Shown here one piece after another: positions 23,127-39,624 of a stretch of DNA of 64,000 nt. The notes beneath the pieces are model-generated. The model worked only from the letters and a program-made list of their open reading frames with translations. It had not been told where the DNA came from and did no database searches. Position 1 is the stretch's first letter. Every line of letters begins with the position of its first letter. This stretch comes from Aequorivita aquimaris (GTDB lineage: Bacteria; Bacteroidota; Bacteroidia; Flavobacteriales; Flavobacteriaceae). The DNA is taken from positions 1 through 64,000 of the forward strand of contig NZ_JRWG01000005.1 in assembly GCF_001573155.1 (NCBI RefSeq). Direction: 5' to 3'. Both the position numbers and the translations under genes were made by a program.

Positions 23127-23148
23127 TTAAAAAGTATTGAAAAAGAAA

Positions 23149-23215
23149 ACCACCAATACACGAATTGTATAAATAATTATTCGTGTACCTGCCTGCCGGC
23201 AGGCAGGTTCGTGGT
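23149..23215. repeat. Dispersed inverted repeat carrying a 20-bp palindrome insertion
   Basis: The left arm ACCACCAATACACGAATT (23149-23166) and right arm ATTCGTGTA/TTCGTGGT match the perfect inverted repeat at 39577-39624. Here the right arm is split by CCTGCCTGCCGGCAGGCAGG (23188-23207), a perfect palindrome, with no base lost on either side. It lies in the leader of secA. Confidence 0.85.
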
Positions 23216-23348
23216 AAGAAAACATAAATAGTTCTTCGAGTTCCTATTGCTGAAAGGAAGCTTACGTTTCCAATGCTGCTCGAACGGACAAAAATTATAA
23301 ATTGACAAAATAGTGCTGCCCGGCAACACTTCAAAATAAATTTACATC

Positions 23349-26300
23349 ATGGGAATATTAGATAACGTATTAAAAGTTTTTGTAGGCGATAAATCAAAAA
23401 AAGACATCAGCCAAATACAGCCACTTGTAAATGAAATAAAAAAACACGAAGCAGCCATAGAAAAACTCTCCCACGATGAACTGCGGGCAAAGTCAGATTT
23501 TTTCAGAAAAGAAATAAAAGCAGCACAAAAAGATGTTCAGGACCAAATTGACAGCCTTGAAAAACAATCTGAGGAAGAGCAGGACATCAACAAAAAAGAA
23601 GAATACTACAACCAGATAGACAAACTAAAGGATGATCGCTACGAAATTGAAAAAGCGACCCTTACTAAAATACTTCCCGAAGCTTTTGCCGTGATGAAAG
23701 AAACCGCAAAACGCTTTAAAGACAACGAAACCATTACCGTTACGGCGAGTCCTTTTGACCGGGAAATTTCTGCAGACAAAGACTATGTAACCCTTGAAGA
23801 TGACAAAGCCATTTGGAAAAACTCTTGGGATGCCGCCGGAAAACCCATTACTTGGGATATGGTGCACTACGATGTTCAGTTAATTGGTGGTGTGGCACTT
23901 CACCAAGGGAAAGTAGCCGAAATGCAAACGGGTGAAGGTAAAACCTTGGTTGCTACACTACCCATGTACTTAAACGCCCTTGCCGGAAACGGCGTTCACC
24001 TTGTAACCGTGAATGATTATCTTGCAAAGCGTGACAGCGCGTGGATGGCTCCCTTGTTTGAATTCCACGGAATGACAGTAGATTGTATTGACAACCACCG
24101 CCCCAATTCCGCAGCACGAAGAAAAGCCTATCTCTCTGATATAACTTATGGAACCAATAACGAATTTGGTTTTGATTATCTGCGTGATAATATGGCGCAT
24201 TCGCCAGACGATCTTGTACAGCGTCCGCACCACTATGCCATTGTAGATGAGGTGGATTCGGTATTGATTGACGATGCCCGTACCCCGCTTATCATTTCTG
24301 GGCCCGTGCCCGAAGGCGACCGTCACGAATTCAACGAGCTAAAGCCAAAAATCAGCAATATTGTTGACGTTCAGAAAAAATACTTGACCGGCGTTTTGGC
24401 CGAAGCCAAAAGGCTTATAAAGGAAGGTGATGAAAAAGAAGGTGGCTTCCAATTGCTACGCGTTTATCGCGGGTTGCCAAAGAATAAGGCACTTATAAAA
24501 TTTCTTTCGGAAGAAGGAGTAAAACAAATTCTCCAAAAAACCGAAAACCACTACATGAGCGACAACAACCGCGAAATGCCAAAGGTTGATGCCGAGCTCT
24601 ACTTTGTTATAGATGAAAAGAACAATCAGATAGAACTTACCGATAAAGGTGTGGATTATCTTTCGGGCGAAGGCGATCCCGATTTCTTCGTAATGCCAGA
24701 AATTGGAACCGAAATAGCCAAGATTGAAAGCAAAGGACTTTCAAAAGAAGAAGAAGTTGCCGAAAAAGAAGAGCTTTTCCGTGATTTTTCGGTAAAAAGT
24801 GAACGTATTCACACGATGAACCAACTCTTGAAAGCCTATACGCTTTTTGAAAAGGACGACCAATATGTGGTGATGGACAACAAGGTTTTGATCGTGGATG
24901 AGCAAACGGGCCGTATTATGGACGGTCGCCGTTACAGCGACGGACTTCACCAAGCTATTGAGGCTAAGGAGGATGTGAAGATTGAGGCCATGACCCAAAC
25001 CTTCGCGACCATTACGCTTCAGAATTACTTCAGAATGTACCGCAAACTCTCAGGGATGACGGGTACAGCGGTTACAGAGGCTGGCGAACTTTGGGAAATC
25101 TACAAACTTGATGTGGTAGAAATTCCTACCAACCGCCCCATTGCCCGCCATGACCGTGAGGATAAAATTTACAAAACCAAACGTGAAAAATACAATGCCG
25201 TTGCGGAAGAGGTTACGGCGCTTTCAAAAGCTGGAAGACCTGTTTTGATCGGTACTACTTCGGTGGAAATTTCAGAATTGTTGAGCCGTATGTTGAGTAT
25301 TCGCAATATTCCGCACAACGTTTTGAATGCAAAACTCCATAAGCGAGAGGCCGACATAGTTGCCGAAGCAGGAAAGAGTGGTATAGTTACCATTGCTACC
25401 AACATGGCCGGTCGTGGTACGGATATTAAACTGAGTAAAGAAGTAAAAGAAGCTGGCGGACTTGCGATTGTAGGTACCGAAAGGCACGATAGCCGTCGTG
25501 TGGACAGACAGTTGCGCGGACGTAGTGGTCGTCAAGGAGATCCAGGAAGCTCGCAGTTTTATGTTTCCTTGGAAGACAACCTGATGCGTCTTTTCGGAAG
25601 TGAGCGAATTGCTAAGATGATGGACCGTATGGGCTTGAAGGAAGGCGAGGTTATTCAGCACAGTATGATTTCAAAATCCATTGAACGCGCGCAGAAAAAG
25701 GTGGAAGAAAACAACTTTGGAATCCGTAAACGTTTGCTGGAATATGATGATGTAATGAACGCCCAACGGGAGGTGGTTTACAAACGTAGATACCACGCAT
25801 TGTTTGGCGATAGACTTCGTGTGGATATTGCAAATATGATTTACGACACTGCCGAAGTAATTGCCGAGAGCAACAAAATGGCGCAGGATTATAAGAATTT
25901 TGAATTTGAATTAATTCGTTTCTTCTCCATGAGCTCCCCTATTTCCGAAAAGGAATTTGAGAAAATGGATGCCCGCGAAATTGCCGGAAAAATATACAAA
26001 GCGGCCTATGTTCACTATCAGGATAAAATGGCCCGTAACGCCGAAATGGCTTTCCCGGTTATCAAAAATGTTTATGAAACCCAAAAGGATAAATACAAAC
26101 GAATCTTGGTTCCATTTACAGATGGTGTAAAAACGCTGAACGTGGCTACCGATCTTGAAAGAGCATACGAAACCGAAGGAAAGCAATTGGTGAATGATTT
26201 TGAGAAAAATATCACCCTTGCAATTATTGACGATTCGTGGAAAACGCATCTTCGTAAAATGGACGAGTTGAAACAATCCGTACAGCTGGCGGTCCATGAG

Positions 26301-26708
26301 CAGAAAGATCCTTTGCTTATCTATAAATTTGAGGCTTTTGAACTCTTTAAAGCGATGATTGAAAAGGTAAACAAAGATGTTATTTCGTTCCTTTTTAAAG
26401 GAGAGCTTCCACAGGAAAACCAGCAACAAATACAGGAAGCACGCGAGGTAAAAAGAAAAGAAAACCTTAGTGAGCAAAAAGACGAAATTCCAAATATGGA
26501 CGAGCGAGCTGCACAGTCACGCGCCGCTGGAAACACACAACCCCAGCGCCAACAAGTAACAGAAACCATTACTCGTGAGCGCCCTAAAATAAACCGCAAC
26601 GATAAAGTTACTATTAAGCACGTGATGAGCGGTGAAAACAAAACCTTGAAATTCAAGCAGGCCATTCCCTTGCTTGATAAGGGTGATTGGGTTTTGGTTG
26701 ATGAGTAA
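23349..26708 (+). CDS. secA: Preprotein translocase ATPase SecA
   Basis: This 1119-aa motor protein drives proteins through SecYEG. Walker [12 protein letters not shown] (about 196-206), the DEAD-like [19 protein letters not shown] (about 302-320), GRGTDIKL and [17 protein letters not shown] define the two RecA-like domains and the preprotein cross-linking region. At 1119 aa it is longer than E. coli SecA (901 aa) because of insertions usual in Bacteroidetes. The C-terminal zinc motif (CxCxSGx8C) is absent; the chain ends in [16 protein letters not shown]...LVDE. The start at ATG 23349 begins the family N-terminus. A stem-loop terminator follows. Confidence 0.97.
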
Positions 26709-39576: not shown

Positions 39577-39624
39577 ACCACGAATACACGAATTATTATG
39601 TTAAAACATTCGTGTATTCGTGGT
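39577..39624. repeat. Dispersed perfect inverted repeat (ACCACGAATACACGAAT)
   Basis: ACCACGAATACACGAAT (39577-39593) and its exact reverse complement ATTCGTGTATTCGTGGT (39608-39624) flank a 14-base loop. A second copy with an inserted palindrome lies at 23149-23215. Confidence 0.9.

Follow-up and report, generated by a model that had tools for sequence, protein, structure and literature searches.

The window, a 64,000-nucleotide stretch of the Aequorivita aquimaris genome, carries on its forward strand the gene for SecA (23349..26708; 1119 aa; NF009536 SecA equivalog, 1943 bits), and in the leader of this gene lies an inverted repeat whose right arm is interrupted by a perfect 20-bp palindrome. 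This palindrome, CCTGCCTGCCGGCAGGCAGG, which we call P, occupies 23188..23207 and stands 141 bases upstream of the secA start. As read in the window, the left arm of the host repeat (23149..23165, + strand) and the first piece of its right arm (23179..23187, +) lie to the left of the insertion point and the remaining piece (23208..23215, +) to its right, and the order through 23149-23215 is ACCACCAATACACGAAT, TGTATAAATAATT, ATTCGTGTA, P and TTCGTGGT. An uninterrupted copy of the same repeat, identified by comparison of the arms, is found at 39577..39624 (+) and reads ACCACGAATACACGAAT...ATTCGTGTATTCGTGGT. When 23188-23207 is removed in silico the right arm becomes exactly ATTCGTGTATTCGTGGT, with no base lost, none duplicated and a junction that cannot slide, as the original prediction had proposed for a perfect palindrome set into one arm. 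The copy of the host repeat here is imperfect: its left arm has C for G (CACCAAT), one mismatch off the 39.6-kb arm. The prediction had also taken the 39.6-kb copy for the state before insertion; it is actually a paralogous repeat, and the real empty alleles are the orthologous secA leaders of five other genomes (G020, G014, G001, G012 and G005), against which P fills an exact gap of 20 columns. Allowing at most 3 mismatches, P occurs once in the window and in none of 100 shuffles. Its own genome (3.15 Mb) holds a single exact copy of P and likewise of the 12-mer core CCTGCCGGCAGG; the host repeat is multicopy there, with 29 arm matches at one mismatch or fewer.

To follow the insertion point through relatives, a genus set was used in which 27 of 28 genomes gave matches to the SecA N-terminus and leaders were read for 24 of the 27, with G019, G023 and G026 omitted. 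A P-like insert is present in three of the 24. In an alignment of eight leaders, those of G000 and G022 carry P at the same point, the G022 copy with 1 mismatch, and that of G025 has a decayed 20-nt copy, with 5 mismatches, at this point as well. The five empty leaders named above complete the alignment; their arm is uninterrupted and slightly varied, and the G020 leader has most of the loop in common with the filled leader. Because G000, G022 and G025 sit in separated branches of a rough two-gene tree, the history of the spot involves either repeated entry of P, or exact loss, or exchange of alleles. The tree itself is poorly resolved and probably mixed by recombination, and therefore we build no argument about polarity on it. 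The secA leader (23131-23330 in the window) is also a hot spot in a broader sense: relatives (leaders L087, L094, L095 and L097) have there either other dispersed repeats or a long extra insertion within the inverted repeat.

Filled and empty states are found at further kinds of site. In Longitalea luteola (G117), a genome with 29 copies, P interrupts tandem repeats of the form GCGTTNN, and the 7-bp register is regained by removing 20 bp at 10 of the 14 testable sites, 19 bp at three and 21 bp at one. Eleven loci each hold both a P-filled tRNA-like copy and its uninterrupted twin (L008, L071, L075, L124, L170, L204, L337, L412, L416, L441 and L013); the first three represent one tRNA in three congeners. 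These twins differ from the filled copy by 0-5 mismatches in 24 bases and their junctions are clean; poorer twins, with 4-6 mismatches, occur at L114, L213 and L122. P is also found nested in another P or P-like palindrome (L127:467, L183:4234).

A protein gene provides another kind of pair. In G013 and G025, gpmI (independent phosphoglycerate mutase, named from partial NCBIfam matches below the whole-protein cut-off) contains a 21-nt variant of P, CCGTGCCTGCCGGCAGGCAGG; the remaining 25 of 27 genomes lack these 21 nt in the alignment, with the gpmI DNA read for 23 of the 27. This insert is asymmetric, 21 nt rather than 20. The flank TCCGAAGG, or a near form of it, is already present in many of the empty genes read, and for gpmI only, the aligned sequences establish that TCCGAAG is target and not part of the element. 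Twenty copies of the variant and its derivatives (L342-L361) were fetched from the listed part of the 63 places in G013 with at most 3 mismatches. Position 2 is G in 18 of these and A in two, TCCGAAG precedes 12, and 19 lie within, or touch, a reading frame of at least 60 open codons, 16 of these 19 being read as AVPAGRQ or a near form. The G013 variant has been amplified, mostly within protein frames after TCCGAAG, adding AVPAGRQ-like residues to unrelated proteins, and its amplification with a change of its own is best read as copies made from copies. Across secA leaders, gpmI, tRNA twins and 7-bp repeats, then, the insertion reading of the original prediction has gained further filled/empty pairs, and the outcome that it had set against this reading, that no other pairs exist, did not occur.

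What kind of DNA does P enter? We counted sites with identical or reverse-complementary 24-nt flanks once, which gave 176 sites in an earlier set and 253 in a later one; 36 stretches (L192-L227) are absent from the flank, hairpin, motif and ARAGORN analyses and from the ORF survey below. P sites are enriched about tenfold in tRNA-like sequence, which spans the junction at 13 of 253 P sites versus 10 of 2016 random ones (p 1.3e-7). In a second group of 40 loci, of which 38 are new (L445 and L448 repeat the discovery loci L122 and L145), tRNA-like sequence was present at 4 of 48 sites versus 2 of 960 random; one of the four, L445, had already been in the discovery set. An uninterrupted twin is present in the same locus at 9 of 166 sites (loci of at least 2 kb) versus 8 of 828 random 30-mers, and junction 24-mers recur uninterrupted in another genome at 11 of 253 sites, a case of P within P among them, but at 0 of 191 random ones.

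Hairpins are not favoured as targets in general. Only 78 of 174 sites are enclosed by at least 5 pairs, versus 85 expected, and energies of the joined flanks are no lower than in random windows (p 0.34; two of the 176 sites were dropped for short flanks). In G124 alone, with 12 sites, the joined-flank energies fall below the control; as a general rule the hairpin-target idea was rejected, and with it the site preference for hairpin arms that the original prediction had suggested. A search for a common target motif by expectation-maximisation over 213 sites yielded a weak R^T preference, with the strongest position, +1 T, at 0.58 bits; where motifs were strong, in G117 and G130, they stem from the repeats that these two genomes carry, and several of the G130 sites are dependent, being copies of one larger repeat that contains P. 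The idea that P is a tRNA intron was likewise rejected, since ARAGORN placed P inside a complete tRNA at 1 of 216 sites (a viral-contig tRNA-Met) and P mostly sits in tRNA remnants that have an uninterrupted twin close by. When 10 loci were scanned with Rfam, the tRNA copies that bear P at L076 and L148 also scored just over the cut-off. The viral-contig tRNA-Met (L330:2239-2330), in which P lies between the anticodon and T arms, is still called a tRNA by both ARAGORN and Rfam.

The search of this genome and its relatives that the original prediction called for returned the single copy noted above, but P is present in 15 of 99 genomes (the relatives and the genome itself), with 16 copies in G013. 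It occurs in 24 of 296 evenly drawn genomes of the same phylum, the present genome included, a phylum that we infer to be Bacteroidota. An even draw of 286 Patescibacteria, centred on the Uhrbacteria genome G109, which was picked since it bears P, gave 65 carriers, G109 among them. A scan of 84,980 species genomes recovered at least 116 stretches with P, some sharing one genome (L163 and L219, for example), and the titles of these records span more than 10 phyla. Among the matches listed, the titles most often name Patescibacteria/CPR (44), Bacteroidota (29), Omnitrophota (12), Nitrospirota (7) and Ignavibacteria (3), with two stretches each from Elusimicrobia, Planctomycetes, Verrucomicrobia, Chloroflexi and Deltaproteobacteria/Desulfobacteraceae, one each from PVC, WOR-1 and Lindowbacteria, and eight without a named phylum; no title from Gammaproteobacteria, Bacillota or Actinomycetota is among the matches listed from these at least 116 stretches. 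Copy number ranges from 1 to 43 in 35 of these genomes, and a reversed-pattern control gave 0 in every genome listed for the 99-genome, 35-genome, 286-genome and 296-genome samples. With up to 3 mismatches allowed, the counts rise from 16 to 63 in G013, from 39 to 73 in G109 and from 26 to 46 in G124. P is also present in the single-contig genomes G001 and G002 and in the complete chromosome of Maribacter halichondriae, and viral contigs include 33 stretches with P, whereas two palindromes made by scrambling its letters occur 0 times and once. In P loci totalling 1.01 Mb, the arms (8+8 nt) surround the exact centre in 215 cases and a different centre in 12, and variants with a longer loop were on this count rejected as a parent element. 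A search of the open-access literature found the full letters of P in no paper and, among the papers listed for shorter pieces or for the theme, no description of it.

When the ORFs around P were surveyed without a preset family (7152 in all, 1574 within 400 bp), a small GIY-YIG endonuclease came out as the top recurrent neighbour, near P in 6 genomes and far from it in one; the next family was near in 3. A profile made from these proteins and run over all 237 loci found 7 GIY-YIG ORFs near P and 2 far from it (at 1.7 and 5 kb), although near DNA accounts for 194 kb out of 1.21 Mb (p 7e-5), with two of the 7 near loci (L008 and L071) coming from congeners. As this profile had been built on near copies, it was therefore tested on the further 40 loci, where GIY-YIG ORFs were near in 3 (L412, L416 and L441, all new) and far in none, the near DNA making up 37.6 of 302.8 kb. 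Two cut-off GIY-YIG-like frames seen by eye at a locus end (L155 and L148) were excluded from the counts. All 5 neighbour proteins scanned score over the cut-off for PF01541, the GIY-YIG catalytic domain, and neither of the 2 scanned against NCBIfam matches any model. By site, a GIY-YIG ORF lies within 400 bp at 9 of 253 (7 loci); none was found within that distance at the other 244, and therefore the nuclease would have to work in trans. The 64-kb window itself yielded no GIY-YIG ORF.

The arrangement common to these neighbourhoods, with variation, is an intact tRNA with the GIY-YIG gene and, bearing P, either a second copy of the tRNA or a remnant of one. Such genes, of about 80 aa, sit by an intact tRNA and a P-bearing duplicated tRNA piece in several phyla and on one viral contig (L008, L071, L075, L124, L170, L204, L337, L412, L416 and L441), and in this setting they look like a putative tRNA-targeting homing cassette. 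A different arrangement is seen at L287:401-967, where a GIY-YIG ORF lies between two exact copies of P, each in a dispersed repeat of the GTCATCGCGA type, and tRNA is absent. Candidate relatives of the endonuclease were found in four Sinorhizobium plasmid records; among viral contigs only the contig already in the set was recovered, and among phages none.

Clean, duplication-free insertion of P into a dispersed inverted repeat, 7-bp tandem repeats and duplicated tRNA pieces is established by sequence comparison, as is that of the 21-nt variant into the protein gene gpmI. On these comparisons P is very probably a mobile insertion. The fuller explanation, in which P moves as a very small non-coding mobile element and the GIY-YIG endonuclease is the lead candidate for its partner, we consider probable. 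P would travel between sites and genomes with the aid of a trans-acting protein; the small endonuclease (about 80 aa) encoded next to duplicated tRNA pieces would cut tRNA-like and other DNA, and P, from a donor of DNA or RNA, would be joined into the nuclease break, in a way comparable to the handling of REP palindromes by RAYT enzymes. In this scheme the cutting, the donor and the passage from phylum to phylum are all hypothetical. As the mobiliser itself, the GIY-YIG endonuclease is a tentative candidate, which leads on two grounds: its recurrence next to P, and the adjoining tRNA remnants, which provide the clearest filled/empty pairs. Its recurrence fits the 'nuclease-assisted' insertion of the original prediction, and leaves it unproven. 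More doubtful still is that P and the tRNA-seated mini GIY-YIG gene form a two-part mobile system, the GIY-YIG counterpart of RAYT/REP, in which a nuclease gene beside a working tRNA gene and a P-plugged tRNA remnant would move P in trans, and nuclease and palindrome would pass as a pair between phyla. Conversely, P in the tRNA remnants beside GIY-YIG genes may merely survive there, the remnants being free of selection.

A different protein could serve P. If P were a REP-type palindrome handled by a Y1/HUH transposase (RAYT, TnpA-REP), it would enter cleanly via single-stranded DNA, and a duplication-free hairpin insertion suits this chemistry; passages of PMC6006769 also describe foot-less REP types, mostly in Bacteroidetes. 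At the level of whole genomes the two go together to a degree: PF01797 is present in 11 of 16 P-bearing genomes searched, and among the 286 Patescibacteria, 43 have both P and Y1, 22 P alone, 94 Y1 alone and 127 neither (odds ratio 2.6, p 0.001, uncorrected for shared ancestry). The loci tell otherwise. Among 40 Y1 loci, mostly read for 0.8-1.1 kb a side and less at contig ends, P with at most 3 mismatches lies within 1 kb in 2 (L245 and L389); at L244 it is 1.0 kb and at L229 2.4 kb from the Y1 gene. Two Y1 loci viewed closely carry other palindromes (L228; L389 by eye), a fixed flank motif is absent over the 213 sites, and no Y1 was found in the P-rich genomes G232 (23 copies) and G354 (15), nor in G000, some of which assembly gaps could explain. 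RAYT was thus rejected as a cis partner and kept as a trans rival given the co-occurrence in genomes, and in that role we think it unlikely. At L228:1478-2000, in G013, another palindromic pair, GGGTCGTGCCGCTGGCACTT with its complement, recurs in several copies after a RAYT-like Y1 gene. Spread through an RNA copy, with the hairpin RNA reverse-transcribed into DNA, is unlikely too. It would account for the enrichment of tRNA-like targets and, P being self-complementary, either strand could serve; yet no reverse transcriptase was recognised among the ORF-survey clusters listed, and the tRNA copies struck are DNA remnants with adjoining non-tRNA sequence. tRNAs are abundant RNAs and common primers, and spread by RNA copy was reportedly proposed for the SDRs of Nostoc by Elhai in 2008.

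The remaining alternatives dispense with movement. P is a palindrome of CCTG/CAGG tetramers that could grow by slippage, but its local making by replication slippage or template switching at hairpins is strongly disfavoured: the same 20 letters stand in records titled to more than 10 phyla, viral contigs are rich in P and not in its scrambled counterparts, and P sites are not rich in hairpins. The deletion reading, named in the original prediction as its alternative, has P ancestral at its sites and lost elsewhere. It can draw on the separated branches that bear P-filled secA leaders and is not formally excluded at that locus, but it needs exact removal of 20 bp (or 21 nt) many times over, with 25 of 27 gpmI genes and the tRNA twins lacking the insert, and is highly improbable. 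We give least credence to an artefact of assembly or sequencing, or to a functional site, for example a terminator, kept by conservation. P is a GC-rich hairpin and metagenome bins are numerous among its hosts; the single-contig genomes and the complete Maribacter chromosome nevertheless contain it, the insert in secA leaders is common to several species and decays between them, and one function of a site would not account for its presence in tandem repeats, in tRNA remnants and, for the variant, in genes.

At 20 bp, P has no room for a gene and yet appears to be mobile, and it bears on the lower size limit of mobile DNA. Its identity in streamlined Patescibacteria and ordinary Bacteroidota raises the question of how it multiplies and passes from one phylum to another. 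With the filled/empty pairs, some of them a few hundred bases apart in one locus, and with isolates such as Longitalea luteola, movement of the SDR or RPE kind can be put to a direct test, for which the GIY-YIG neighbour is a suspect mobiliser with a name. If the two-part system were true, it would include the smallest mobile element common to several phyla, to our knowledge.

In its features P conforms to a very small mobile repeat: a 20-bp hairpin palindrome in many copies, inserted precisely, with filled and empty sites. Neither the secA leader nor the 11 tRNA twins show a target-site duplication, which sets P apart from MITEs, recognised by terminal inverted repeats with a duplication. The SDRs of Nostoc punctiforme and its relatives, as reportedly described by Elhai et al. 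in 2008, are hairpins of about 20 nt, nested in repeats and in 7-bp tandem repeats, and are said to be confined to a cyanobacterial subgroup. P resembles them, by description and not by sequence, in size, hairpin, nesting, 7-bp repeats and precise insertion; unlike them it is exact across phyla (Patescibacteria, Bacteroidota, Omnitrophota and others), without cyanobacterial confinement, and has tRNA and GIY-YIG neighbours. SDR5, for instance, inserts precisely between nucleotides 3 and 4 of HIP1, according to a passage in PMC4390886. REP and REPIN sequences are described, in parts of PMC6006769 and PMC3116915, as dispersed palindromes for which a nuclease gene is believed to act in trans; the former also mentions REP insertions that can preserve reading frames and atypical REPs without GT[AG]G. 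Canonical REPs have a GT[AG]G foot and their own flanking tnpA gene, whereas P has no fixed foot over 213 sites, does not flank a Y1 gene in the manner of a REPtron (it lies within 1 kb at 2 of 40 Y1 loci), and has GIY-YIG as its recurrent neighbour. The short, optional palindromes of organelles (Volvox palindromes, Fusarium palindromic microsatellites and Allomyces double hairpins), thought mobile in passages of PMC7218506 and PMC2670323, are similar to P but organellar, and those of Fusarium are A/T runs. Rickettsia palindromic elements (RPEs), as portrayed in sections of PMC10969869 and PMC2229807, are Rickettsia-specific, measure 105-150 bp and lie in frame in unrelated protein genes. The 21-nt variant is like them in lying in frame in protein genes, as judged against orthologues for gpmI only, and P differs in being widespread and, at 20-21 nt, far from the RPE length. 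P thus works most like the Nostoc SDRs, and within genes like the RPEs, and its exact sharing across phyla is the new feature.
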